20,649 nt of DNA from a virus. Positions 312-20,573 of the stretch are shown in pieces. The stretch's first letter is position 1. The number at the start of each line of letters is the position of its first letter. The notes below the pieces were generated by a model. The model had not been told where the DNA came from. It was given only the letters and a program-made list of their open reading frames with translations, and did not search any database. The translations under genes and the position numbers were made by a program. The DNA lies in IMG/VR virus record IMGVR_UViG_3300032322_000379, positions 1 to 20,649 of that record. One strand, 5' to 3'.

Positions 312-1034
312 GTGGCTTACGATTTCTTGGGTTTAGTCAATGACATTAATAGAAAGCTAAATGAAGTAGAGCTAACCAGTTCTAACTTCAGTACTGCAAA
401 GGGTTTCTATTCGCATGCCAAAGATGCAGTCAATGCAGCTATTCAAGATATTAATCAGCTAGAATTCCAATGGCACTGGAATCATGTAACACAAACTACA
501 ACCTTAACTGCAGGAACAAGTAGGTATAACTACCCTGCTAATGCGAAAACAATTGACTTCGATTCTTTCCGTATTAGAAAAAATACCACATTCAACAATG
601 AGACAGTCAAATTAAAGATTCTGTCTTACGAAGAATACTTAGAGAAGTTTGTAGATCAAGAATATAATGCCGATACAAGCCTAAGAGATATTCCTTCCTT
701 TATTGTTCAGGCACCAAATAGACAATTCATTTTGGTACAGACACCAAAGGAAGCATACGAACTAACGTATGAGTATTACACAGTAACTACCGATTTATCT
801 GCATACAATGATGTGCCAACTATTCCTGAAATGTATAGGCATGTCATTGTTGAAGGTGCTACTTATTATGCGTATATGTTTAGGGGCAATACTCAAGACG
901 CAACAGTAGCCAAAGCAAAGTTTGAACAGAACCTCAAGCATATGAGAATCATGCTGGTCAATCGTACCGAGTATGTACGCTCTACTATGCTTCCACAAAA
1001 TAAAAGATACACTGCTGGCTTTAGGGTTAATTAA
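312..1034 (+). CDS. Tail adaptor / tail tubular protein A-like (gp11-like)
   Basis: This 240-residue protein starts at GTG, with AAGGTG five bases upstream. In T7-like phages the adaptor (tail tubular protein A, 196 residues in T7) forms the ring between the portal and the nozzle. The assignment rests on size, position directly before the nozzle gene, and the family's look: an N-terminal helical part with paired aromatic residues (LEFQWHWNHV near residues 50-60), then a beta segment starting TTTLTAGTSRYNYP (63-76), a central YEYYTVTTDL strand, and a C-terminal helix after VPTIPEMYRHVIVEGATYYA. It has no signal peptide or membrane segment. The TAA overlaps the ATG of the nozzle gene by one base (TAATG), so the two are probably translationally coupled. 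The fold is inferred, not shown by a catalytic signature. Confidence 0.75.
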   Translation: MAYDFLGLVNDINRKLNEVELTSSNFSTAKGFYSHAKDAVNAAIQDINQLEFQWHWNHVTQTTTLTAGTSRYNYPANAKTIDFDSFRIRKNTTFNNETVKLKILSYEEYLEKFVDQEYNADTSLRDIPSFIVQAPNRQFILVQTPKEAYELTYEYYTVTTDLSAYNDVPTIPEMYRHVIVEGATYYAYMFRGNTQDATVAKAKFEQNLKHMRIMLVNRTEYVRSTMLPQNKRYTAGFRVN

Positions 1035-5288: not shown

Positions 5289-6635
5289 ATGGCATATCTT
5301 GGTAATACACCAACCACCCAGAGTTTTATCTCTGGAACCGACTATTTCAACGGTACAGGCTCACAGACTGCGTTTACTTTAACTCGCACAGTTGCTAGTC
5401 AAAATGACGTTGAAGCAGTAGTTAATAACGTAGTCCAACAACCAAATGCTGGCTATACCATTAGCGGTACGACCATCACCTTTACCTCTGCCCCATCGGC
5501 TGGCACACAGAACGTCTACGTGCGTTATCTCAGCACCACGACTCAGACTATTGCCACAGGACAGGGAACAGTAGGCTGGAATCAGTTAAATACAGACACT
5601 CAGCAAGACTTGGGTATTTCGTTCAAGAACAGAATCATCAATGGTGCGATGCAGATTGACCAGCGTAATGCTGGTGCTAGTGTTAGTGTTTCTGATACTT
5701 ACACTTTAGATAGATGGTTAGCAAGCTCATCAACATCCGCAAAATACACTGTACAACAAAATGCTGGCTCTGTAACTCCACCAGCAGGATTTAATAATTA
5801 TTTAGGAGTAACTTCAGCAAGCTCATACAGCGTTCCCGTTGGGGAAATTTACGCAGTACAACAACGAATTGAAGGATTAAATGTTGCCGATTTAAATTGG
5901 GGTTCAGCAAATGCTAAAACAGTTACTTTGTCATTTTGGGTGCGTAGTTCGCTAACAGGCACTTTTGGGGGGTCTTTTAGAAATAGTGCGAACGATAGAA
6001 GTTATCCTTTTTCTTACACCGTTTCTTCTGCAAACACTTGGGAACAAAAGTCAATAACTATTACTGGTGATACAAGCGGAACTTGGCTTACAACTAGTGG
6101 AATTGGAATTAGAGTTGCTTTTGGGCTTGGAGTTGGTTCAACATTTAGCGGAACTGCTGGTGCATGGGCGGCTGGTAACTTTACATCTGTAATAGGAGCA
6201 ACATCAGTAGTCGGCACAAACGGAGCAACTTTCTACATTACAGGCGTACAACTCGAAGTAGGCACACAGGCAACGACCTTCACAACAGCGGGTGGTTCAT
6301 ACGGTGCTGAATTGGCTTTGTGTCAGAGGTATTATGAGCAAGTAACTGGAAGCACATCTGAGCAAAGACCATTTGGTATAGCATATGCCGCATCAACTAC
6401 ATCTATTAGATTAGTTTTTTATTACAAACAACAAAAAAGAGCAACCCCTACTATTGCTGGAACTACTGCTAGAGTTTCTAATGCTACCGATGGAACATCG
6501 CCAACTATTGAATTAATTGGTCCTGATACAGCAATTATTAGCTATACCACATCAGGTTTAACAGCAAATAACGCATATGTAATATTTAATAGAAGCGGTA
6601 GTGCGGATTACATTGCTTTTAGTTCGGAGTTATAA
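5289..6635 (+). CDS. Tail fiber / receptor-binding protein with jelly-roll-like domain
   Basis: The 448-residue product is modular. Residues 1-90 (starting MAYLGNTPTT, with FNGTGSQTAFTLT and VYVRYL) form an anchor module shared with the fiber encoded at 7335. Residues 110-127 carry the widespread fiber motif ISFKNRIINGAMQIDQRN. Residues 135-330 then look like a carbohydrate-binding jelly roll: DRW at 141-143, TLSFWVRSS at 213-221, and the closing strand FYITGVQLEVG at 315-325, followed by LCQRYYEQ. Residues 355-448 are a variable C-terminal part. AAGAGG (5277-5282) is placed six bases before the ATG. Base composition changes inside the gene: 53% G+C at 5521-5580, 38% at 5761-5820, 55% at 6241-6300, 37% at 6421-6480, suggesting a mosaic origin. 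Receptor binding is inferred. Confidence 0.8.
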   Translation: MAYLGNTPTTQSFISGTDYFNGTGSQTAFTLTRTVASQNDVEAVVNNVVQQPNAGYTISGTTITFTSAPSAGTQNVYVRYLSTTTQTIATGQGTVGWNQLNTDTQQDLGISFKNRIINGAMQIDQRNAGASVSVSDTYTLDRWLASSSTSAKYTVQQNAGSVTPPAGFNNYLGVTSASSYSVPVGEIYAVQQRIEGLNVADLNWGSANAKTVTLSFWVRSSLTGTFGGSFRNSANDRSYPFSYTVSSANTWEQKSITITGDTSGTWLTTSGIGIRVAFGLGVGSTFSGTAGAWAAGNFTSVIGATSVVGTNGATFYITGVQLEVGTQATTFTTAGGSYGAELALCQRYYEQVTGSTSEQRPFGIAYAASTTSIRLVFYYKQQKRATPTIAGTTARVSNATDGTSPTIELIGPDTAIISYTTSGLTANNAYVIFNRSGSADYIAFSSEL

Positions 6636-6809
6636 ATGTATAAATTACACAAAAACATAGAAGGTTCAATAAACTCTGTAGTAATAACAAATGGGGATGT
6701 AACTATTTCTATTCCTTTAACAGACCCCGCAAACACCGACTACCAAGCCTACCTAAAGTGGCTCGCACAAGGCAACCAGCCTCTACCCGCAGATGAAGGA
6801 GAACAATAA
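6636..6809 (+). CDS. Small 57-residue companion of the fiber gene
   Basis: This short frame starts at ATG 6636, directly after the stop of the preceding fiber gene, and ends at a TAA whose last base is the A of the next ATG (6809). GGAG at 6626-6629 lies six bases before the start. The protein begins MYKLHKNIEG, has a beta-like middle (VVITNGDVTISIPL) and an acidic end, DYQAYLKWLAQGN then QPLPADEGEQ. The YQAYLxWxxxGNxPLPAD pattern is common in small proteins encoded after phage fiber genes, some of which are assembly chaperones or tip proteins. Perfect packing with both neighbours and the good SD make it a real gene. The chaperone role is only a suggestion. Confidence 0.8.
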   Translation: MYKLHKNIEGSINSVVITNGDVTISIPLTDPANTDYQAYLKWLAQGNQPLPADEGEQ

Positions 6810-7324
6810 TGCCAGTAAGTACAGTCCCTTACGCAGGTTTAACATCCCCCCTTGGCGGTAGCGTTATTGTTAGCGGAACTGCTGTAGCTTCTACTTCAGG
6901 CACTTCTATTGATTTTACTAGCATACCTAGCTGGGTAAAGCGGATTACTGTAATGTTTAGTGCTGTATCTACTAACGGCTCTAGTAATTTACAAATACAA
7001 ATTGGTGCTGGTAGCGTTACAACAAGCGGTTACACATCTAGTGCTTGGACAGCCAATACATCTAATAGTGGAACAGTTACTACAGGATATATTTTGACTG
7101 CAGCCAATGCTGCGGCAACAACTTTTTACGGAAACATAACAATTTCTTCATTTGGCTCTAACACTTGGATTGAATCACATTCATTAGGTGGAAGTACAAG
7201 TGGTTATAACTCTGTAGGTGGTGGAACTATTGCTCTCGGTGGAACACTAGACCGAGTTAGAATCACCACAGTTAACGGCACAGACACCTTTGACGCTGGC
7301 TCAATCAACATCTTGTACGAGTAA
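6809..7324 (+). CDS. Beta-rich tail/fiber-tip protein, copy 1 of a paralogous pair
   Basis: The 171-residue protein is Ser/Thr/Gly-rich, without Cys or membrane helices. Its core TSIDFTSIPSWVKRITVMF (32-50) and its end (RITTVNGTDTFD, then AGSINILYE) are nearly the same in the protein encoded at 8701-9228. The middle (65-140) differs strongly between the two. This pattern, fixed ends and variable centre, fits a small beta-sandwich whose loops are exposed at a fiber tip. AAGGAG at 6796-6801 gives a strong SD seven bases before the ATG. The ATG overlaps the stop of the 57-residue gene. The function is inferred from context only. Confidence 0.7.
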   Translation: MPVSTVPYAGLTSPLGGSVIVSGTAVASTSGTSIDFTSIPSWVKRITVMFSAVSTNGSSNLQIQIGAGSVTTSGYTSSAWTANTSNSGTVTTGYILTAANAAATTFYGNITISSFGSNTWIESHSLGGSTSGYNSVGGGTIALGGTLDRVRITTVNGTDTFDAGSINILYE

Positions 7325-7334
7325 GGTAAATTAA

Positions 7335-8444
7335 ATGGCATATATAGGTAATCAACCAACTACAGTAGCCTTCCTTACCGATACATTTAACGGTACTGGA
7401 TCTCAGACTGCTTATACAATGACCGTGGCTCCTGCCACTACAAGCTCTATTCTTGTAGCCATTACGGGCGTTTTGCAAGATCCAAGTACATATAGCGTAT
7501 CTGGAACTACCCTAACATTCTCGGTTGCCCCACCATCGGGTACGGGCAATATCTCGGTTCGCTATCTAGGTATCCCAGCAAGCGGCATCGCTACCACAGC
7601 ATACAGAACTCAGACCGAGTTCACCGCCACTTCAGGACAGACTACCTTCACGCCACCATCGTACACACCTGGCTTTATTGATGTTTACCGTAACGGAGTG
7701 TTATTGGGTTCGGCTGACTTTACAGCCACTAACGGAACGACTGTAGTTTTAGCAATTGGAGCTACTGCTGGCGATCTTATCGAGACCGTTAGTTTCTTTG
7801 TAAGCTCAGTCCTAAACGCCATCCCAGCAACAGCGGGTGCGGTAAATAGTACATACTTGTTAGATGGCTCTGTAACATCAGCTAAATTGGCGGCTGGAGC
7901 AGCAGTCACTTCTTTAAACGGAAGCACGGGTGCATTAAAAGGTGCTGTATTTACAGGAACCACAAGTATTGCTGCTGGCTCAACATCTGTTGATGTAACT
8001 AGCCAAATGACTAACGCTGGTTGGTATATTGTTAATGTAAACCTTACACTAAGTGCTGCTGCAAATTCAACAGATATTGGCTTTAGAACATCATCAAATA
8101 ACGGTTCATCGTTTGATTCTGGTGCATCTAATTATGTATACGATATTTATAACGCTGGAACTAACACGGCTCAAACTTACCTACTTGGAACAAATACAAA
8201 CACCACTAACGCTGTGTTTTGGATGAATTTTAGTATTCTAATGTACACAGGAAATGGAACAAATCCAAATTTCTTTAACATACAATATGGAAATGGAGCA
8301 GTAACCCCAACGCTTAATGAGTTTGGCGGTAGATTTGGTTATAGGGCTTCTCTTTCACAGATTAATGCTATTCAAGTAGTAAGAGTCTCAGGAACTAGAA
8401 CGATGAGTTCAGGAACAATCAATGTGTATTACTTAGGACAATAA
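7335..8444 (+). CDS. Tail fiber protein sharing the N-terminal anchor module
   Basis: The 369-residue product has three parts. Residues 1-87 start MAYIGNQPTT and carry FNGTGSQTAYTMT and SVRYLG; they align with the first 90 residues of the fiber at 5289. Residues 90-190 form a second module with TEFTATSGQTTFTPP (94-108), PGFIDVYRNGVLL (112-124) and DFTATNGTTVVL (128-139), a block common in phage fibers, followed by LLDGSVTSAKLAAGA. Residues 200-369 are a beta-rich head with many Asn, Thr and Ser, ending GTINVYYLGQ. G+C falls from 53% (7561-7620) to 35% (8101-8160) between modules. TAAGG at 7322-7326 serves as SD. It is likely a second receptor-binding fiber; an alternative is a fiber branch attached to the first one. 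Confidence 0.78.
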   Translation: MAYIGNQPTTVAFLTDTFNGTGSQTAYTMTVAPATTSSILVAITGVLQDPSTYSVSGTTLTFSVAPPSGTGNISVRYLGIPASGIATTAYRTQTEFTATSGQTTFTPPSYTPGFIDVYRNGVLLGSADFTATNGTTVVLAIGATAGDLIETVSFFVSSVLNAIPATAGAVNSTYLLDGSVTSAKLAAGAAVTSLNGSTGALKGAVFTGTTSIAAGSTSVDVTSQMTNAGWYIVNVNLTLSAAANSTDIGFRTSSNNGSSFDSGASNYVYDIYNAGTNTAQTYLLGTNTNTTNAVFWMNFSILMYTGNGTNPNFFNIQYGNGAVTPTLNEFGGRFGYRASLSQINAIQVVRVSGTRTMSSGTINVYYLGQ

Positions 8445-8446
8445 TC

Positions 8447-8704
8447 ATGGAAAAACTATATAAATCCGTCAATGGCGAATTGGTTGAATACAGTCCTGAA
8501 GAATATGCTCAGGCTGAAGCCGACCAAAAATACTACGATGAAGTAATTAAGCCAAACGAATACAAACAGTTGAGAGCTAAAGAATACCCGCCCATCACCG
8601 ATTACATTGATGGTGTAGTAAAGGGTGACCAAGCACAGATTGATAAATACATTGCGGACTGCCTTGCGGTCAAGGCTAAGTATCCTAAAGGAGTAACAGA
8701 ATGA
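8447..8704 (+). CDS. Small acidic companion of the second fiber gene (fiber-assembly-like)
   Basis: The 85-residue protein is charged and predicted helical: YSPEEYAQAEADQKYYDEV (15-33), then LRAKEYPPITDYIDGVVKGD (43-62), then a helix with DKYIADCLAVKAKYP. The R-A-x-E-YPPI-x-D-x-I/L-D motif is typical of small proteins found after phage fiber genes (XkdW-like or fiber-assembly-associated families). It starts three bases after the preceding fiber gene (TAGGA SD at 8434-8438), and its TGA overlaps the next ATG (ATGA). An assembly chaperone or a protein bound to the fiber tip is plausible; the exact job is not shown by the sequence. Confidence 0.72.
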   Translation: MEKLYKSVNGELVEYSPEEYAQAEADQKYYDEVIKPNEYKQLRAKEYPPITDYIDGVVKGDQAQIDKYIADCLAVKAKYPKGVTE

Positions 8705-9228
8705 CACAAGCCGTTAACTTAGCCACCGTAGGCTCAAACGCAAATTCAAGCGGAACTTTAATTATTAGAGGTACTGCTGTAACCTGCGCTGGTCAAACTT
8801 CTATTGACTTTACTGGTATTCCTAATTGGGTAAGAAGAATTACTGTAATGTTTAATGGTGTTTCAACATCAGGAACTAGCAATATTCTTGTTCAACTTGG
8901 AACATCAGGTGGTATTGTTTCGAGTGGGTATAACTCCACTGCTGCAAATCAAGGTGGTACAACTGTTTCATCAACGGCTGGATTTTTAATAAATTCGCAA
9001 ACAGCCGCAGCGGATATTTTTTCAGGAATTTCTGTATTTACTAACATTACTTCCACAAATTGGGTTTATGCTGGCACTGGCAAAAGAGCAACTAATGCAC
9101 TTGCTTATGGCGGCGGTGATGGTGCTATTGGTGGTGTTGTTACACAATTACGCATTACTACAGTCAACGGCACAGATACTTTTGATACTACTCCGTCTGC
9201 TGGCTCAATTAACATTTTGTATGAATAA
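8701..9228 (+). CDS. Beta-rich tail/fiber-tip protein, copy 2 of a paralogous pair
   Basis: This 175-residue protein is the paralog of the one at 6809-7324. The shared blocks are TSIDFTGIPNWVRRITVMF (33-51) with V-S-T-x-G-x-S-N after it, and the closing LRITTVNGTDTFD plus AGSINILYE, with a short TPS insertion in the second copy. The centre (65-140) differs, with an AGTGKRATNALAYGGGDGA stretch not found in copy 1. A strong SD (AAAGGAG, 8687-8693) precedes the ATG by seven bases. As with copy 1, it follows a small companion gene of a fiber, so the fiber / small protein / beta-rich protein trio appears twice in tandem. Confidence 0.7.
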   Translation: MTQAVNLATVGSNANSSGTLIIRGTAVTCAGQTSIDFTGIPNWVRRITVMFNGVSTSGTSNILVQLGTSGGIVSSGYNSTAANQGGTTVSSTAGFLINSQTAAADIFSGISVFTNITSTNWVYAGTGKRATNALAYGGGDGAIGGVVTQLRITTVNGTDTFDTTPSAGSINILYE

Positions 9229-11419: not shown

Positions 11420-11899
11420 ATGCAGGTTAGCGATAAAACTATTAAAATGATAAAACACCATGAAGGTGTACGCTTTACTCCATACCAGTGCCCAGCCCTA
11501 TTGTGGACGATTGGTGTTGGGCATGTAATAGATCCCAACCATGCCCGTGTAGCCCTTGCAGAAAGAAAGAATCTGCCTATACCTACAGGATGGGATAGGA
11601 AAATAACAAACGAAGAATGTGACGATATTCTTAGAAAAGATCTTAGCCGATTTGAACAGGGTGTTGAGCGATACTGTACCGTTCCTCTCACTCAAGGTCA
11701 GTTCGATGCTCTTGTTAGCTTTAGCTTTAATGTTGGCTTGGGAACACTACAAAGAAGCACACTCCGTCAGAAGATTAATAGACAAGATTACGAGGGTGCT
11801 GCTGAAGAACTATTGAAGTATTGCATGGCAGGCGGTAAGGTACTTAAAGGTTTACTCAATAGAAGAAAAGATGAAAAAGCATTATTTGAATCTAAATAA
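11420..11899 (+). CDS. Endolysin, GH24 lysozyme (muramidase)
   Basis: The 159-residue protein is a full-length GH24 lysozyme that cuts the N-acetylmuramic acid/N-acetylglucosamine bond in peptidoglycan. The triad Glu-8 residues-Asp/Cys-5 residues-Thr is visible as Glu15, Cys24 and Thr30 (HHEGVRFTPY, QCPALLWT), with IGVGH following. The C-terminal half has LTQGQFDALVSFSFNVGLG (90-108) and a final GLLNRRKDE, both typical of the family. Cys in place of the common Asp is as in phage 21 endolysin R21, but here no N-terminal SAR or signal segment is present, so release should depend on the holin. The SD is weak (AAGTAAG). The start MQVSDKTIKMIKHHEG is normal for the family. Confidence 0.93.
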   Translation: MQVSDKTIKMIKHHEGVRFTPYQCPALLWTIGVGHVIDPNHARVALAERKNLPIPTGWDRKITNEECDDILRKDLSRFEQGVERYCTVPLTQGQFDALVSFSFNVGLGTLQRSTLRQKINRQDYEGAAEELLKYCMAGGKVLKGLLNRRKDEKALFESK

Positions 11900-11918: not shown

Positions 11919-13946
11919 ATGGCAGATAAAACATTCACAGAAAAACAACGGGAAATAGTAGCTCGTAAGATGGGCTATGATGGTCCTATGAATATGTTTG
12001 ATGAATACTTAAACTCCAGTCCATCTGAAGCACGTAAGTATGCCCTGATTGATAATAAGTTTATGGCTCGTGGTGGCATGGTTAGAAAGTATCAAGAGGG
12101 TGGTGCTGTTACTCCCACTACTACTACTACAAATACTGAAGAAGAAAAGAAATTTACTGCACCTGTCAAGCCACAAATATCTGCTGTAAAACCTACTCTT
12201 ACAACTGCGGAGCCAGAGCAACTAATACAAACAGAATTAGCCCCAACACAAGCAGCACAAGTTACACCTGCAACTACTACTCCTACTGTTTCTGCTGCTG
12301 CTCCAACAGTTAAACCAATAACTACTACACAAGCAGCTACTTCTACACCTGCTGTTAAGACTGCAGTTCAAGAGTTACAACCTGCACAAGGTGTTGTATC
12401 AGAGCAAGCACAAGTTACTGCTGCTCAAGCTGTGCCTACTGAGACTGCCGTTGGTCAGCTAGATGCTGCACAGGGTATGACAAGGCAAGTAACTGGTGCA
12501 CCTGTACGTGGTGAACAAGTAGGTGAAATGATCAGTGGACCTGCTGTTGATATGGCACAGGTAGAGAATACCTTAGCTAAAGCAGAAGCTGCTCAGGGGG
12601 TAGTGACAGAAGACATGACAGTTCAAGGGCAGTTAGCTAAATTAACTGCTGGCTTTGAATCGGGTAATCCTCCGTCATGGGCTGCTGCATCCTTACGTAA
12701 TGCTACAGCACAGATGGCTGCCCGTGGTTTAGGTGCATCTAGCCTAGCAGGTCAAGCTATTATTCAAGCTACCCTAGAGGCTGCTGTACCTATTGCAAGT
12801 GCTGATGCTCAAGTGTTCCAGCAGATGGGTATGCAGAATCTATCTAACAGACAGCAAGTAGCTGTATTAACTGCACAGCAACGTGCCCAGTTCTTAGGTC
12901 AAGAGTTTGACCAAGCATTCCAAACCCGTGTAGCTAATGCTGCTCGTGTAGCTGACATTGCTAATATGAACTTTACAGCACAGCAACAGGTTGCCTTAGA
13001 GAATGCAAGACTAGCACAGACAATGGACTTAGCTAATCTAAATAATAGACAAGCTCTTGTAATGGCTGAAGCTGCACAGATTGCTAACTTAGAGACACAG
13101 AACTTAAGCAATAGACAGCAAGCCGCTGTAGTAAATGCTCAGGCATTCCTACAAATGGACATGACTAATTTACAGAATGAACAGCAAGCTGAAATGTTTA
13201 AGGCACAGTCTGTTGTACAAAGTTTATTAACAGATCAAGCTGCAGAAAATGCATCTCGTCAATTTAATGCAACAAGCCAAAATCAATCTGATCAATTCTT
13301 TGCTAATTTAACTAGCCAAGTAAGTCAATTTAATGCACAGCAAACTAATGCAATGTCACAGTTTAATACCGATCAGGCTAACACTGTGTCTAGATTTAAT
13401 GCTGAGGTACAGAATCAACGTGATCAGTTCAATGCCCAGAATCGTTTAGTCATTGACCAGTCTAATGCTCAGTGGCGTAGAGAGATTGCTACTGCCAATA
13501 CAGCAGCTACAAATCGTGCTAACGAATTCAATGCAACAAAAGCTATGGAACTAACAACCATAGAGTATAATAATGTGTGGCAACAGTTCCGTGATGAGAT
13601 TGAGTACTCATGGAAATCTGCAGAGAATGCAGCAGATCGTATCAATCAAATTACTAGACAAGAAATTTCATCAAATGCTACAGTTCTTGCAGCTGCTATG
13701 GCTAAGGATGCAGCATTGACTGAGACTATTGGTAAGGCAGCTGCTACTATTCTTGGTGGTACAACTGCAGGCTCAACAGGTGCATCTATCTTTGGTGATA
13801 TTATTAAAGGTGGATACGATCTTGCCAAGAGTACTATCGCTGGTTCGTGGGATAGTCTGTTTGGTATTGGCGATAATCTCAGCAACTATTCTTATGTAGG
13901 TCCTAATGAATACCCAGACTGGTGGGAAACAGAATCATATGATTAA
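11919..13946 (+). CDS. Internal virion/ejection protein with a 242-residue hendecad repeat
   Basis: This 675-residue protein starts with a small domain (1-62) ending FMARGGMVRKYQEGGAV. A Thr/Ala/Pro/Gln-rich linker follows (63-230), then an amphipathic region (240-300) with NPPSWAAASLRNATAQMAARG. Residues 307-548 show an exact 11-residue period, Asn/Gln-rich (see repeat entry). A hydrophobic Gly-rich segment (605-645, ATILGGTTAGSTGASIFGDI) could enter a membrane, and the end is acidic and aromatic (YPDWWETESYD). T7-like phages carry internal core proteins (gp14, gp15, gp16) that leave the head first and form a channel across the cell envelope. Position, size and composition suit such a role. 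TAAGGT at 11906-11911 is the SD. No enzyme motif is seen. Function is inferred. Confidence 0.72.
   Translation: MADKTFTEKQREIVARKMGYDGPMNMFDEYLNSSPSEARKYALIDNKFMARGGMVRKYQEGGAVTPTTTTTNTEEEKKFTAPVKPQISAVKPTLTTAEPEQLIQTELAPTQAAQVTPATTTPTVSAAAPTVKPITTTQAATSTPAVKTAVQELQPAQGVVSEQAQVTAAQAVPTETAVGQLDAAQGMTRQVTGAPVRGEQVGEMISGPAVDMAQVENTLAKAEAAQGVVTEDMTVQGQLAKLTAGFESGNPPSWAAASLRNATAQMAARGLGASSLAGQAIIQATLEAAVPIASADAQVFQQMGMQNLSNRQQVAVLTAQQRAQFLGQEFDQAFQTRVANAARVADIANMNFTAQQQVALENARLAQTMDLANLNNRQALVMAEAAQIANLETQNLSNRQQAAVVNAQAFLQMDMTNLQNEQQAEMFKAQSVVQSLLTDQAAENASRQFNATSQNQSDQFFANLTSQVSQFNAQQTNAMSQFNTDQANTVSRFNAEVQNQRDQFNAQNRLVIDQSNAQWRREIATANTAATNRANEFNATKAMELTTIEYNNVWQQFRDEIEYSWKSAENAADRINQITRQEISSNATVLAAAMAKDAALTETIGKAAATILGGTTAGSTGASIFGDIIKGGYDLAKSTIAGSWDSLFGIGDNLSNYSYVGPNEYPDWWETESYD
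12837..13562 (+). repeat. 22 consecutive 11-residue (hendecad) repeats, Asn ladder
   Basis: Counting from Asn307, every 11th residue to 538 is N, T, E, N, N, N, N, E, N, N, N, K, D, N, F, N, N, N, N, N, N, N: Asn in 16 of 22 units with no slip in register. The first half alternates NLSNRQQ-like (307, 351, 373, 395, 417) and NAQ-like units, giving a 22-residue super-period. The second half repeats Q/R/E-F-N-A with Phe at 449, 460, 471, 482, 493, 504 and 537. Hydrophobic residues recur around units' positions 8-10. Eleven residues make three helical turns. Confidence 0.9.
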
Positions 13947-13949: not shown

Positions 13950-13955
13950 ATGACA

Positions 13956-14183
13956 ATGAGTATCAATGATTACAAAAATAAAATAGAAAGCTACATTAGT
14001 AAAAAGGATAATAGTTCTAAAGAACTGGAATCTGCTCGTGGATTGCTGGCACCTAAAGGGGTAGTTAAGAAGGAAGCAATGAAACAAATGGATGCTATTG
14101 CTAGTGTCAGTGAATTTATTTATGCGATACGGCAAAAAAGAAAAGATATTCTAAAAAATAAAGGTACAAAAAATGGCAGCTGA
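13956..14183 (+). CDS. Small basic protein of the internal-protein block, function unknown
   Basis: From ATG 13956 the product is 75 residues (77 if the ATG at 13950 is used, which has no room for its SD). It is Lys-rich and predicted helical: SINDYKNKIESYISKKDNSS, then KKEAMKQMDAIASVSEFIYA and a basic end, RQKRKDILKNKGTKNGS. No membrane helix, Cys or known motif is visible. It starts nine bases after the internal protein gene, and its last 11 bases overlap the next gene, so it belongs to the same operon. Small helical proteins in this place in T7-like phages may be virion components or assembly helpers. I do not recognise the family. Confidence 0.7.
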   Translation: MSINDYKNKIESYISKKDNSSKELESARGLLAPKGVVKKEAMKQMDAIASVSEFIYAIRQKRKDILKNKGTKNGS

Positions 14184-14658
14184 TACTGGATATTTAAATG
14201 CACCTATTCCGGGGATGTCGTTAACTACTACACCCGGTGACAGACCTTGGGAAAATCCACCAAGCCTAGTTACTATTGAAGAAGCAATGGAGTACTATGC
14301 ATCTAAGATACTTGGCAATAAAGATTCTCATGATCAATTGCTAGATGTTTTAGAGCTAGGTGTTCCTGTAAGTAACTTAGCTTCTATTCTTCAAAAGAAT
14401 TCTGTAATGAACGGTGTGCACACATTAGATGTTGGCATGTTAGTTTTACCAGTCATTGAAGAGTTGATCATGGCAGTAGCAGACATGAACAATGTTTCTT
14501 ATGTGCCTTCCCCAGAGGCAGTGGCTAAGTCAATGTCGATTTCACCAAGAGAAGCTAGAAAAGCAGTAGAGGCAATGAGAAAGAGCAAGGCAGAAGAAAC
14601 AGTACAAGAAGAAAAGCCTCGTGGCTTAATGGCTAAACCTATAGAAACAATGGAATAA
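14173..14658 (+). CDS. Conserved phage virion-associated protein, function unknown
   Basis: The 161-residue product begins with a Pro-rich N-terminus, NAPIPGMSLTTTPGDRPWENPP (residues 9-30, split as two motifs PIPGMSLT and PGDRPWENPP). A helical body follows (35-110: EEAMEYYASKIL, QLLDVLELGVPVSNLASILQ, VLPVIEELIMAVADM). It ends in a charged helix (125-150) and RGLMAKPIETME. The PIPGxSLTxxPGxxPWExPP start is one I associate with conserved proteins of marine and freshwater phages, both podo- and myoviruses, of unknown function. The gene overlaps the previous one by 11 bases and uses AAGG at 14161-14164 as SD, inside that gene. It lies among internal virion genes and may be one, or a scaffold-like helper. 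Confidence 0.7.
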   Translation: MAADTGYLNAPIPGMSLTTTPGDRPWENPPSLVTIEEAMEYYASKILGNKDSHDQLLDVLELGVPVSNLASILQKNSVMNGVHTLDVGMLVLPVIEELIMAVADMNNVSYVPSPEAVAKSMSISPREARKAVEAMRKSKAEETVQEEKPRGLMAKPIETME

Positions 14659-14662
14659 TACT

Positions 14663-15955
14663 ATGTCGCTATTAGCAAAAGCATTTGTAGCAGGTGCTGC
14701 CGAAGGTGCAGCAGAAAGCATTGAGAAACGTAATAATGAAATACGTAAAAATGCTGCAGCTGAATTAGAAATGTTACGTAAAGAAGCAGAAGAAAAAGAT
14801 GAGAAACTTCGCACTAAACGTGATGAGTTAAGATCTACTGCACAAGCACTAAGCAGCTATCGTGATGGTAAAGGTGTAGCTTTAACTGAAACCCAGATCA
14901 CTGCACTATTAATGCAGCCTGTAAAAGCTAAACAAATTCTTAAAACTTTGGAGACAGAAAAAGATTTAGGTAATATTGATTTTAGTAAAGTATTAAAAGT
15001 TGGTGCTAAACCAGAAGATGTTCTTAAGCCACAAGAGTATATTCAAAAGGCTACATCTATTCCAGCTGGATTACCAGAGAGCCAACCTACCCCAGTTGTA
15101 CGTGGGGCATTTGGCTTTGAGTCGCCAGCATACAAACAAGCACAACAACAGTTTGAGCAAGTCTCTGGTAAGTCTGTTCGTGACATTAGAGCTAAAGCAT
15201 TAGGCTCTCCTGATGAAATACCAGCTGTACCTTTGGAAGTTGACTTATCCCAGTTCAAGAAACCAGAAAGTATTGAGATGGTTCAGAATAGATTGGCTGA
15301 TAATATTGCCAATGGCGGTAAGTACTCTGATCCTGAGAATCAAAAACTGTTAGAGAGACTTAAAGCGAATACTGCTATCAAAGAAATGATAGGAGAAGGT
15401 GAAGGCAGTAAGCCAAGAACTGCTGCTATGATTAATGGCGTATTTGATAAGTCATTACGTATTGGTTTAGAGCCGTTTATCACAGGTCGTGTTGTACGTC
15501 TTGACCCAGAGACAAATACTTATGTGCCTATTACCGGAGACGTAGACGCTATTAATAGCTTCATGAAACAAAGAAATGATATTGTCCAGTCTCGTGCTAG
15601 AGAAATGGGCATCCTTGATAAGGACAATAAAATCATTGGTGGTAGAAATTCAGAAGATGCTCTATTGCCATACGCTACTATTAAAGACGGCAAGGTTGTA
15701 TCGTGGAGATCTGCAACAACAGTGACTACACCTGCTCCTGCCCCTGCACCGGGCACTGCTGCCCCAGCTAAACCTGCTGCAACAGCAACAACACCTGCAC
15801 CTGTAGAACAAAAAGTAGTAGATAAACCAATACCTACTCCTGCAGGTGCCCTTGTCAATGGTGTATGGGATCCTGCTAAATTAGTAAAAGATCAAAAGTA
15901 CTTAAGTAAAGACGGTAAAACAGTAAGAACTTGGAATGGTAAAGGCTGGCAATAA
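14663..15955 (+). CDS. Internal virion protein candidate (mid-size)
   Basis: This 430-residue protein has an N-terminal Ala/Gly helix (1-18, LLAKAFVAGAAEGAAES), a highly charged coiled coil (19-62, rich in Glu, Lys and Arg), and a mixed central region (70-350) with a beta part (RIGLEPFITGRVVRLDPE, 266-283). A Thr/Ala/Pro linker (352-385) precedes a 35-residue C-terminal module (396-430, GALVNGVWDPAKLVKDQKYL, ending NGKGWQ). It lies between smaller internal genes and the 1119-residue protein, the position of the gp15-like core protein in T7. No enzyme signature is visible. The SD is weak (GGA, eight bases upstream). Virion location is inferred from neighbours and from the linker-module design it shares with the protein at 11919. 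Confidence 0.65.
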   Translation: MSLLAKAFVAGAAEGAAESIEKRNNEIRKNAAAELEMLRKEAEEKDEKLRTKRDELRSTAQALSSYRDGKGVALTETQITALLMQPVKAKQILKTLETEKDLGNIDFSKVLKVGAKPEDVLKPQEYIQKATSIPAGLPESQPTPVVRGAFGFESPAYKQAQQQFEQVSGKSVRDIRAKALGSPDEIPAVPLEVDLSQFKKPESIEMVQNRLADNIANGGKYSDPENQKLLERLKANTAIKEMIGEGEGSKPRTAAMINGVFDKSLRIGLEPFITGRVVRLDPETNTYVPITGDVDAINSFMKQRNDIVQSRAREMGILDKDNKIIGGRNSEDALLPYATIKDGKVVSWRSATTVTTPAPAPAPGTAAPAKPAATATTPAPVEQKVVDKPIPTPAGALVNGVWDPAKLVKDQKYLSKDGKTVRTWNGKGWQ

Positions 15956-15967
15956 TAAAGGATAAAA

Positions 15968-18900
15968 ATGGCTAGTGAATTAGACTTTCTACAGGCGGGT
16001 GTTACTGCACCTCAGTCTGAATTCGATTTACCTATTAAGACTCCAGCATCTAGTCAGACTTCAGCTGCTATGGTTCCTAAAACTACGGCACCTGCTTCTG
16101 AATTTGACTTACCTATTAAAGAACAAAAGGTTTCCTTACCTGCTAAAGAACAAAAGATCTCCTCTGAGTTTGACTTGCCAGTCAAAGAACAAGAAGTTCC
16201 TTTTGAATCACTATATAAAAATCCAGAGAACCTTAAAATAATTAAGGAGTATGGAGAAGTACGCTTTGGTGAATCTGGCAAACAAAAGCCAAATGAATCT
16301 GATGAGGACTATGCCAAACGATTCATGACAGCAATGCGTCAGGTTGAATACAATACATCACTAAATGCTGTACCTGAATTAAATTGGATATACAATGCCA
16401 AGCCTGATGAGGCACTTAAAACTGCCCGTGCCTTTGAACTGTACGAAAAGGTACCATACTTTTTTCAAAAGGGTGGACAGCCGGGCATTCGTCCTTTAGC
16501 AGAGTCTGTTTTATCTGCTGTATCTGAGCCTACTAATATTGTATCTTTTGGAATAGGTGCTGCTGCTAGACAACAGGCAGCAAGGGCTGCTATCAAGACA
16601 GCAATAAGTGCTAAGACAAAAGCTGTAGTTGGTGGAGCAAGTGCTGAGGCTGTGCTTGGAACTGCACAATCTGCTGTGTCATTACAAAGAGATCTAAAAG
16701 TACAACAGGTATTGGATACTGAAAAAGTTGACATTGAATTAAACAAGGCAAGGGGTGCATTAAATTCAGGAGAAATAACCCAAGAACAATTCAATGCTTT
16801 CAAAGAAAAACAAAACGAAAAAATAAAAGAAATAAATAGTAGGCAGATAAGTAAGGGTGAGGCTGCTATCGGTGGGGCTATTGGTGCATTGTTTGGTGGC
16901 ATCGAAGCAAGAGCAGCATTTAAAACTCCTAAGCTAACAACTGCAAAAGATTTAGAAAATGTTTTAGAGGGAAGAAAAAAGTTACTGACTGAAACGACAG
17001 ACACTGCTACTAAAGAACTTGCAGATGCTTTTGATCAACAGCTTGATGAAACACTTCGTCAGTTTGATATATTTGAAGGCAGAAAAATCCTTGATCAATT
17101 AAATCCACCAACAGAAATCACACAAGCAGAATTAAAAACAGATATTAATACTCGTGCTATCAATGTAGCTAAAGCTATTCTATTAGAAGATCCTGCTTTT
17201 AGTGATGTTGCAAGAAGAGTAGGCACCAAACAGCAAAAAGTATCTAGTGCTGTAAGCGAAGTGTTTGGATCCCTAGATAAAGTAAACGATGTTGCACTAA
17301 CAAAAGCCCTTGAAAAAGAAGGACTTACGCTACAAGAGTTTTCTAAAGTAACAGGAACTACAGTATCCGATGCTGCTTCTATTATGCAAGCGTACTCTGC
17401 ACTGTCTCGTGTTCTTTCTCGTCAAGCACAGGTAGATCCTGATGCACAAAAAGTTATTGACGATATGTTCCTCAGAAAATTTCATGTGCCAGATTTTTTA
17501 ATAACTTTAAAAGATGGTATAAATAGATTTGAAAGAGAATCAAAAGCATTAGTTGTATCTAGTATTGCAACAACAGTACGTAACGTATTGGGAACTTCTG
17601 TAAGTTTAACTTTTGATGCTACCTCTAAGTTTATAGAAAGTAGTCTGTATCAAGCTGGTAAAGTAGTTAAAAGTATTAAGCAAGGAAAGTTTGAAAAGGA
17701 AGATCTTTCTGTTGGTTTAAATACAATTGTACGAGACACTTTTAATACTTTAACTTATTTAACTAACGGTGGAATTACAGCAGAAGTAGTAGATAAAATT
17801 TTAGTAGACAATCCTAAAATTAAAGATCAACTATTTAGTGCCCTACAAGAAACTGGAAATCAAAACCTATCGAAAGTTTCTAAGATCGCAAACACTTTTA
17901 ACGTAGCACAAGATGCTATATTCAGACGTGCTATTTTTACAGCAAGTGTAGAAAGACAGCTACGTAAAGTTGGCATGGATATGTATGGAATACTTGCTGA
18001 AAATAAAGCAATACCTACCGATGTTGTAAAAAATGCTGCAGACGAAGCATTGAAAGGTACCTTTTCATATATGCCAAAACAAGGTGTAGCACATCACTTT
18101 GTAAAGTTTTTTGAACAGATGCCCGGTGGGTCTTTACTAGTAACATTCCCTCGCTTCATGACAAATGCGATGGCGTTCCAGTATAAGTATAGCCCTGTTG
18201 GAGCAGCTTTTGGTGGAGCAGATATAGTTAGAGCCGGACTTAATTTAAAAAAGAATCCACAATTAGCTGCACGTCTTTATCAAGAAGGCTTAAATAAATT
18301 TTCAAAGGGCATGGTAGGAACGGGTGCTATAGCTTGGGCTACAGCATATAGAGCAGAAAACCAAGAAAGCCCTTGGTACACATTTACGAATGAAGATGGT
18401 GGTACAGTAGACACCCGTGCATTATTCCCTATTGCACCCTACTTAGCAGTGGGTGAGTTTATTGCAAAATCACGAGAGGGTAAAAAATCTAATACAAAAG
18501 AAATCGTAGAAACTCTTTTAGGTATGAAAATTCCGGGCGGTGCTCAGGGATATATAATAGACCAACTTGCTGCAGCATACAATAACACCGAGGGTAAAGA
18601 AGCAGAGCGATTAGAAAAATCTTTAGGTGCCGTGTTTGGTGATTTTGCAAATCGTTTTATTCAACCCGGTCAGCCTATATTTAATTTCTTTGAATTGTTT
18701 AATACTGAAAGTCAGATTGCTAGAGATCCGAATGTTATTACTAGCGATGATATTATAACTGAGTCAGCATTAAATCGTATCAAAGCTAAAGTTCCGGGAT
18801 TCAAAGAGGGATTACCAGAGGCTAAAAGATATTTAAGAAAAGAAGTACCAGTACGTACTGGAGAATTCTTTAATACTTTGATGGGCGTTAGAATTGTTCC

Positions 18901-19327
18901 AAGGGCTAATGATATAGAACGAGAATTTGTACGTCTTAATTTAGATCCCTATAAATATTTTGGATCCACTGGGGATAAGGTATTAGATAGGGCAGTAATA
19001 GATGAAGCTGGACCTTTCATTAATCAAAGGGTTGTCCCTCTATTAAACTCTGATAGATACAATAAAATGACAGATAGCCAAAAGACACTGGCAATGGGCA
19101 ATAACATGCGTGAGTCTGTGACTATTGGAAGAACTATAGCTAGAGATAAAATGTTAGGTAAAGACAGAGACAGAATGGATAAGCTTATATTCAACAATAA
19201 AACTGCAGAAGAAAGAAAAGCTATTAACGAACTCTATGCAAAACAAAATAATGGTGTAACAATGGATGAGGCTAAGGACTATAAACAAATCTATAAGTAC
19301 GAAGCACTCATCGAAACATTCAGATAA
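15968..19327 (+). CDS. Large internal virion/ejection protein (gp16-position)
   Basis: The 1119-residue product is the largest of the window and the last late gene, the place of T7 gp16 (1318 residues), the protein that reaches the host cytoplasm first. The N-terminus (3-80) holds three SEFDLPIK-type motifs. Glycine-zipper-like hydrophobic segments appear at 192-232 and 298-314 (EAAIGGAIGALFGGIEA), and a helix at 780-792 (GMVGTGAIAWATA). The rest is mainly helical, with FDATSKFIESSLYQAGKVVK (549-568) and SLLVTFPRFMTNAMAFQYKY (722-741). No lytic transglycosylase motif like that at the T7 gp16 N-terminus is visible. AAAGGAT at 15957-15962 is the SD. The stop abuts the first minus-strand gene. 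Function is inferred from size, place and membrane-active segments. Confidence 0.72.
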   Translation: MASELDFLQAGVTAPQSEFDLPIKTPASSQTSAAMVPKTTAPASEFDLPIKEQKVSLPAKEQKISSEFDLPVKEQEVPFESLYKNPENLKIIKEYGEVRFGESGKQKPNESDEDYAKRFMTAMRQVEYNTSLNAVPELNWIYNAKPDEALKTARAFELYEKVPYFFQKGGQPGIRPLAESVLSAVSEPTNIVSFGIGAAARQQAARAAIKTAISAKTKAVVGGASAEAVLGTAQSAVSLQRDLKVQQVLDTEKVDIELNKARGALNSGEITQEQFNAFKEKQNEKIKEINSRQISKGEAAIGGAIGALFGGIEARAAFKTPKLTTAKDLENVLEGRKKLLTETTDTATKELADAFDQQLDETLRQFDIFEGRKILDQLNPPTEITQAELKTDINTRAINVAKAILLEDPAFSDVARRVGTKQQKVSSAVSEVFGSLDKVNDVALTKALEKEGLTLQEFSKVTGTTVSDAASIMQAYSALSRVLSRQAQVDPDAQKVIDDMFLRKFHVPDFLITLKDGINRFERESKALVVSSIATTVRNVLGTSVSLTFDATSKFIESSLYQAGKVVKSIKQGKFEKEDLSVGLNTIVRDTFNTLTYLTNGGITAEVVDKILVDNPKIKDQLFSALQETGNQNLSKVSKIANTFNVAQDAIFRRAIFTASVERQLRKVGMDMYGILAENKAIPTDVVKNAADEALKGTFSYMPKQGVAHHFVKFFEQMPGGSLLVTFPRFMTNAMAFQYKYSPVGAAFGGADIVRAGLNLKKNPQLAARLYQEGLNKFSKGMVGTGAIAWATAYRAENQESPWYTFTNEDGGTVDTRALFPIAPYLAVGEFIAKSREGKKSNTKEIVETLLGMKIPGGAQGYIIDQLAAAYNNTEGKEAERLEKSLGAVFGDFANRFIQPGQPIFNFFELFNTESQIARDPNVITSDDIITESALNRIKAKVPGFKEGLPEAKRYLRKEVPVRTGEFFNTLMGVRIVPRANDIEREFVRLNLDPYKYFGSTGDKVLDRAVIDEAGPFINQRVVPLLNSDRYNKMTDSQKTLAMGNNMRESVTIGRTIARDKMLGKDRDRMDKLIFNNKTAEERKAINELYAKQNNGVTMDEAKDYKQIYKYEALIETFR
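16016..16186 (+). repeat. Three SEFDLP(I/V)K motifs at the N-terminus of the large internal protein
   Basis: SEFDLPIK lies at residues 17-24 and 44-51, and SEFDLPVK at 66-73. A related SELDFL sits at 3-8, and a KEQK box follows copies two and three and also the intervening SLPAKEQK. The spacer sequence between copies is unrelated, Pro/Thr/Ser-rich and probably disordered. Confidence 0.9.
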
Positions 19328-19595: not shown

Positions 19596-20573
19596 TTAAG
19601 CTGCTAATCTTTCTTGACTCTCACCCCAACCCCACTCACCTTCCATACCAGCAGCATTGTAGTCAGTTACAACACCCTCAAAGAAGTTCTTAAGGCTGTC
19701 ACCAGAGATCACCCAATCTAACCACTCTAATGGGTTCTCTTTGACCTTCCAGTTACCCTTCAAGCCAAGCTGAATCAATCGTCTGTCAGCGATATAACGA
19801 ATATACTTCTTAACATCTGCAGCTGTCAAGCCTTGGATCTCACCTAGTTCAAATGCTGCATCTGTAACTGCATCCTCAAGTGCTACACCCTGCCTGAACA
19901 TCTCATAGATGTCTTTCTTAAACTCGTCAGTCACGATACGTGGATGCTCATTACAGAACTCACGGAACAGTTTGACCATACCCTCACAGTGCATTGTCTC
20001 ATCCCGCACAGACCACTCTACAATCTCGCACATACCTTTCATCTTACCAAATCTCTGGTAGTTAAGGAGCATTGCAAAGGCTGAGAACAAAGACATGCCC
20101 TCATTCATAACCGATCTTGCAATAGCTTTAGCTAAACCTGCATGGCTATTGGTATCGATCTGTGACATGAAGTCAATCTTCTCACTCATCTGCTTGTACT
20201 TCAGGAATGCTGAGTACTCTTCCTCCGGCAATCCAAGTGTGTCATTTAATAATGCGTAGCTACGTTGATGCACAAACTCTCTATTGGCAAAGCTAGTTAG
20301 CATTGCACGTATCTCATTGTTCTTAAACTTCTGAATGTAGTGCTCTAAGTAATTGGTACCTACAGCTACGTCACTCTGTGTGAATAGTCTGAGGATTTGT
20401 GTGATGTGATTCTTCTCTTGTGGGGATAGCTTGCCCCCTTGCCACTGTGCTAAGTCATCCTGCAGCTTAGCTTCCCACTCACCCCAGTGGGCTTTCTCTG
20501 ACTTAATGGCGTACTCAACAGCCCAAGGTGCAAAGAAAGGTTTGTAGGAAACGCTGGGCGATATAAGACTCAT
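19596..20573 (-). CDS. nrdB: Ribonucleotide reductase class Ia, small (R2) subunit
   Basis: The 325-residue product carries the di-iron tyrosyl-radical site of class Ia R2 proteins, which supplies the radical for reducing ribonucleotides to deoxyribonucleotides. Ligands with the right spacing: Asp68, Glu99 (31 residues on), His102, radical Tyr106 (FANREFVHQRSY), Glu158 (MNEGMSLF), then Glu192 and His195 (VRDETMHCEG). These match E. coli Asp84, Glu115, His118, Tyr122, Glu204, Glu238 and His241, including identical gaps of 31, 3, 4, 34 and 3. The protein is shorter than E. coli NrdB (375), as usual in phages; the C-terminus ends WGWGESQERLAA. GGAG lies nine bases before the ATG. The R1 partner should be encoded nearby, probably to the right of the window. 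Confidence 0.96.
   Translation of the reverse strand: MSLISPSVSYKPFFAPWAVEYAIKSEKAHWGEWEAKLQDDLAQWQGGKLSPQEKNHITQILRLFTQSDVAVGTNYLEHYIQKFKNNEIRAMLTSFANREFVHQRSYALLNDTLGLPEEEYSAFLKYKQMSEKIDFMSQIDTNSHAGLAKAIARSVMNEGMSLFSAFAMLLNYQRFGKMKGMCEIVEWSVRDETMHCEGMVKLFREFCNEHPRIVTDEFKKDIYEMFRQGVALEDAVTDAAFELGEIQGLTAADVKKYIRYIADRRLIQLGLKGNWKVKENPLEWLDWVISGDSLKNFFEGVVTDYNAAGMEGEWGWGESQERLAA

Follow-up and report, generated by a model that had tools for sequence, protein, structure and literature searches.

An exact 11-residue repeat of quantised length in a candidate DNA ejection protein of HMO-2011-type podophages

Introduction

A virus fragment of 20,649 bases, called here the window (the whole stretch of DNA that was analyzed), touches on the question of how the very abundant marine podophages pass their DNA through the Gram-negative envelope. 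It does so through an open reading frame on the plus strand (11919-13946) whose 675-residue product contains a long array of 11-residue units. What does a protein built around such an array do for the phage? By its sequence, the phage of the window is an HMO-2011-type podophage, i.e. a member of an abundant marine group infecting bacteria: the homologous late gene cluster is present in the same order, but NrdB is found in place of NrdJ. The closest named relatives of the 675-residue protein come from Roseobacter phage CRP-1 (52% identity) and Puniceispirillum phage HMO-2011 (51%). Protein phage1322_25 of HMO-2011 and its homologs in the CRP phages, HTVC033P/104P, CHOED, phiM6, MQM1 and Slicky01 have the protein, the cluster and the register in common with the window, and all are annotated as hypothetical protein. 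The array, the quantisation of its length and its function were found described neither in the records nor in the open-licence PMC papers searched.

Results

The repeat in the window protein

The protein is organized as follows.

11919..13946, + strand: 675-residue hendecad-array protein, homolog of HMO-2011 phage1322_25
11919..12554, + strand: residues 1-212, short conserved N-terminal segment, then a Thr/Ala/Pro-rich linker
12555..12836, + strand: residues 213-306, conserved N-anchor domain (PPSWAAASLRNATAQMAARGLGASS...PIASADAQ)
12837..13562, + strand: residues 307-548, array of 22 exact hendecads, 16 of them with Asn at phase 0
13563..13718, + strand: residues 549-600, C-anchor (EYNNVWQQFRDEIEYSWKSAENAADR)
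13731..13853, + strand: residues 605-645, Gly-rich, mildly hydrophobic segment

A slip-free 11-residue register and the recurrence of Asn at one place in 16 of 22 units had been noted in a preliminary description of this DNA, and both observations were borne out: residues 307-548 divide into 22 exact 11-mers occupying precisely positions 12837-13562, and the phase counts place the 16 Asn residues at phase 0. With 13% Asn in the array overall, the binomial chance of this enrichment is about 3e-9, the 11 phases being allowed for. Autocorrelation, the check named in that description, gives a clear peak at lag 11 (identity 0.234 vs. 0.102 +/- 0.019 in 5000 shuffles, of which the maximum was 0.186; Z 6.8), followed by lag 22 (0.255) and lag 33 (0.187), every other lag up to 39 staying near 0.1. 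A second stripe of Phe/Leu/Ala had also been described; the residues are indeed these, but they form two phases and not a single stripe, namely position 1 (A 13, L 4, F 2 among the 22 units) and position 10 (F 8, A 4). The repeat is thus real, and much stronger than could be seen at first. Repeats at the DNA level are weak in the window array (74-78%), which indicates an old repeat maintained in the protein rather than a fresh expansion. Compared with two relatives, the array has a dN/dS of about 0.06-0.08, and the linker (residues 61-212) evolves fast (0.33-0.55). Residues 1-212 are swapped for longer modules in relatives, in one case with a LysM domain. The N-anchor domain is predicted to be helical in both of the AlphaFold models described below, and the best 19-residue stretch of the C-terminal tail reaches a KD value of 1.0 with five Gly.

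Quantised length across the family

Homologs were gathered from IMG/VR, phage genomes and MAG contigs, and the spacing between the two anchors was measured by profile (N-anchor residues 236-316, C-anchor residues 494-575, window numbering). Among the 217 distinct proteins of the first set, 216 are offset from the window spacing by whole multiples of 11, a rule not followed by the stretches between each anchor and the protein terminus on its side. Loci fetched later were in register without exception (90/90, some of these contigs being already part of the first set), and the combined non-redundant set contains 269 of 270 homologs in the 11-residue register. The sole exception (L130) carries an extra residue towards the C-terminus of its array (NTQNSNLAIEQSNV). 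Nineteen array lengths were observed (12, 15, 16, 17, 18, 21, 22, 23, 24, 30, 32, 39, 40, 42, 50, 52, 60, 62, and 72 units), those of named phages lying between 15 and 30 units. The arrays of 62 units (L292, L293, L295, L300, L301) and of 72 units (L294, L296, L340) comprise 682-792 residues, and the longer arrays alternate two unit types with a 22-residue period. One branch proceeds in steps of 110 residues (22, 32, 42, 52, 62, 72 units), and neighbouring 330-nt blocks within it reach up to 86% DNA identity; these steps are explained by block duplication through recombination. On the other hand, block duplication alone leaves unexplained the absence of slips of 1-10 residues across divergent sequences, for which selection on the register is the simplest reading.

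Helical structure and the two hydrophobic seams

The composition of the array argues strongly for an alpha-helix. There is not one Pro in 75,972 array residues, as against 5.4% elsewhere; Gly amounts to 1.2% and Ala to 17%, V/I/T are low, and helix propensity is better in the array than in the rest of the protein. Two AlphaFold monomer models, obtained with 16 and 78 sequences, predict the array as all helix with zero strand, at low confidence (mean pLDDT 48 and 60, pTM 0.21 and 0.24). The long helix of the preliminary description is thereby supported. A beta-solenoid, or a Gln/Asn amyloid-like ladder devoid of helix, has in its favour that hydrophobic positions alternate (hydrophobicity power at 131 and 164 degrees, not at 98), a pattern that a beta-strand would fit as well as the helical rod that we prefer, and that Asn ladders are common in beta-helices. 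However, the composition speaks against strands, Gln/Asn would occupy interior positions, and both models are strand-free; we regard a fold of this kind as most improbable.

When the helical wheel is drawn at 11 residues per three turns, the large hydrophobic residues gather in two seams at 98-164 and 262-327 degrees (phases 1/5/9 and 3/7/10), centred at about 137 and 298 degrees and separated by about 162 degrees, and make up just 2-3% at 196-229 and at 0 degrees. The narrow face between the seams (196-229 degrees; phases 2 and 6) consists of Gln/Ser/Thr. On the wide face, Asn stands at 0 degrees, and the residues at 33 and 65 degrees are charged in 36-39% of cases. The phase-0 Asn is the most conserved position of the unit (column entropy 0.39 bits), above every hydrophobic one, a ranking that points to a structural contact rather than simply to exposure to solvent. 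The array thus has the 11-residue register of a single-core hendecad coiled coil but not its one hydrophobic face near 98 degrees: single-face power is not significant (p 0.86 at 98.2 degrees, p 0.58 for 94-106 degrees), in a test that is weak, since the analyzed region of the P22 needle likewise has its peak off 100 degrees; the missing 98-degree power is for this reason less than decisive against coiled coils in general. A helix lying between two neighbours, in a wall, a barrel or a folded bundle, would account for the two seams better than would a simple coiled coil of two to four strands.

The preliminary description had pictured a straight tube formed after ejection, with the Asn ladder turned into the lumen and a length matched to the periplasm, in the manner of the phiX174 pilot protein H, a decameric alpha-helical barrel. 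The long helix and the exact register agree with this picture, and H is likewise helical, amide-rich and used for DNA delivery, with three hendecads and a lumen lined by N/Q/R (PMC7354561). However, the hendecads of H are followed by heptads, its pattern is at 97 degrees and not at 131/164, and no sequence relation between the two proteins is detectable. Moreover, the narrow side of a closed wall, that of the lumen, would be Gln/Ser/Thr, and Asn falls on the wide, charged side between the two seams, contrary to an Asn-lined channel. Length does not track the envelope either: as straight helices, 12 to 72 units would measure 20 to 119 nm, and phages of one host strain, FZCC0040, carry 16 (CRP-235) and 21 (CRP-207) units, so that the host envelope does not set array length. 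As 119 nm exceeds any usual Gram-negative envelope, at least the long arrays would have to be folded back or placed elsewhere, and a straight helix across the periplasm does not hold as a rule. A multi-helix wall or tube is possible; the straight Asn-lined form of it we consider decidedly unlikely.

Gene neighbourhood

The array gene is the first in the terminal cluster of the late operon (675, 77, 161, 430, and 1119 residues), after which convergent genes follow; the SU10-type adaptor, fibre-like genes and the lysozyme gene lie upstream.

312..1034, + strand: SU10-type adaptor protein (PF24175, 83.7 bits)
11420..11899, + strand: lysozyme (Phage_lysozyme), directly upstream of the array gene
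13950..14183, + strand: 77-residue protein of the terminal late cluster
14173..14658, + strand: 161-residue protein (about 160-190 residues at the equivalent position in most named relatives)
14663..15955, + strand: 430-residue protein (about 370-930 residues in named relatives)
15968..19327, + strand: 1119-residue protein, last of the late operon

A similar cluster in the same order is found in the named relatives, and in the marine podophages all of its proteins are listed as hypothetical. The partners of the array gene match no known family; from its position and size, the 1119-residue protein is a candidate for the large (gp16-like) ejection protein. By eye, no relation between array units and the lengths of the 430- and 1119-residue partners is evident among the named phages. 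In phage SU10, this place at the end of the late operon, ahead of convergent genes, is taken by gp20-24, proteins that are present in virions and gone upon genome release (PMC9509320). By gene position, ejection is the likeliest role of the array protein, in agreement with the preliminary description, which had called it ejection-type.

A counterpoint to this assignment is that no sequence link between the array protein and any ejection protein was found by profile, PHROG and PDB comparisons. Scans of the window protein against Pfam and PHROG returned nothing, and sequence and profile searches of the PDB returned nothing real, with one chance match to ComP (E 0.026). The kinship with phiX174 H or T7 gp14/gp15 for which the preliminary description proposed to look is thus undetectable by sequence in the Pfam, PHROG and PDB searches. 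Profile comparison with SU10 gp21/gp22 gave a probability of 0.4%, the weak alignment falling at the matching place. The assignment of the CRP-212 relative to phrog_4287 ('DNA ejection protein') was rejected, since the match vanishes without the Peptidase_S74 domain. Searches for published virion proteomics of this phage group returned none.

Likeness to known ejection systems lies in arrangement. SU10 gp21/gp22, the DNA injection protein of Salmonella phage 7-11 (phrog_4287) and P22 gp7 (phrog_598) also belong to the last late block and have an N/Q-rich middle and a Gly-rich C-terminal part, but they lack the hendecad array and show no significant profile similarity. With the Kuravirus/SU10-type ejection systems, the window shares the late-block position together with an SU10-type adaptor but not sequence similarity to gp21/gp22. 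The ejectosomes of T7 (gp14/gp15/gp16) and DEV (gp73/gp72/gp71), which form helical tunnels (PMC10925440), are likewise encoded in a podophage cluster of small, middle and very large proteins; no sequence similarity to them was found, and no hendecad array is described for them.

The same gene position would be expected of an internal virion protein that is no conduit, i.e. a helical rod that forms bundles inside the head or about the DNA ends and is ejected to protect the DNA or hand it over. Long helices have to fold back inside a head, and DNA-end-binding ejection proteins are known, for example gp44 of phage 80alpha (PMC7290940). On the other hand, basic residues do not prevail in the array (K+R about 7%, D+E about 9%), which does not favour DNA coating, and the strictness of the register is left unexplained; we hold this role to be quite unlikely. 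The near-absence of slips suggests that the rod is a strictly register-locked part of the DNA-delivery machine.

Accessory domains in relatives

The accessory domains of the homologs point both ways. LysM, a peptidoglycan-binding domain, occurs near the N-terminus of the CRP-235 protein (L037, residues 62-113) and suits passage through peptidoglycan; N-terminal parts vary widely in length, to more than 800 residues in L018 and L019. S74 is an intramolecular chaperone domain, usual on trimeric fibres and spikes. A Peptidase_S74-type domain is found at residues 547-602 of L032 and at the C-termini of L037 and L040 (CRP-3, CRP-235, and CRP-212), directly after a Gly-rich hydrophobic segment, in this one branch of the family; it is absent from the window protein.

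The main rival to an ejection protein is an external fibre or tail needle made of a trimeric coiled coil, in which S74 would serve as the trimerising chaperone of some relatives. Fibres reach 100 nm or longer, which fits the members with 62-72 units, and the array gene comes after the fibre and lysis genes. However, a single-core coiled coil predicts one hydrophobic face, and two seams are present here, although the weakness of the angular test given above applies to this point too. Moreover, an S74-like motif occurs in only 7 of 214 homologs, and the same Gly-rich and S74 ending, common to the CRP-3 branch and the annotated DNA injection protein of Salmonella phage 7-11, is also that of AH02 gp11, which in addition has a DNA-ejection match of the P22-gp7 type. 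An external fibre is unlikely in our estimate.

Discussion

We propose that the array protein belongs to the virion of an HMO-2011-type podophage and most likely serves in ejection, with a two-seam helical rod forming a wall or bundle; taken as a whole, this explanation seems to us evenly poised. Exact 11-residue units would make up its core, a long alpha-helical rod, in which the two near-opposite seams would let each helix pack between two neighbours. Several copies, or folded-back stretches of one copy, could in this way build up a helical wall or bundle, the near-invariant phase-0 Asn most likely providing a contact that recurs along the helices and holds their mutual register, and the Gln/Ser/Thr face lining a lumen in the case of a closed wall. 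Once the phage has adsorbed, the array protein would exit the head together with the other products of the cluster and help to extend the short tail through the envelope. Register, quantised length, composition, selection and synteny are observations; beyond them, the alpha-helix is strongly supported, packing by two seams and ejection less so, and a wall or tube weakly.

A more specific proposal, which we put forward as a tentative and rather doubtful one, is an ejection family whose rod is counted in units of 11 residues (in one branch in blocks of 110) and whose two seams would close it into a wall, serving as a DNA conduit or an extendable tail that would grow in evolution by whole units, with the Asn ladder locking the helices in register. 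A sixfold range of length in exact 11-residue steps amounts to a natural experiment, in which ideas of a ruler, a tube or a fibre are directly testable by comparison of phages with 12 to 72 units, including the two of a single host strain. For protein designers, the family may offer a naturally varied series of Asn-registered helices.

Some observations concern other parts of the data. Homologs L275-L291 come from MAG contigs labelled Flavobacteriales, Maricaulis, Campylobacteraceae and others; several of these contigs measure 55-63 kb and are thus probably binned phage genomes rather than host genes. In the window, the class I ribonucleotide reductase small chain (PF00268) is encoded among the convergent genes, at 19596-20573 on the minus strand, and HMO-2011 has its B12-dependent nrdJ near the same place. 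Finally, two pairs of genes in the fibre region look alike (5289-6635 with 7335-8444, and 6809-7324 with 8701-9228); a common MAY[LI]GN.PTT start and a 171/175-residue pair suggest gene duplication in the fibre module.
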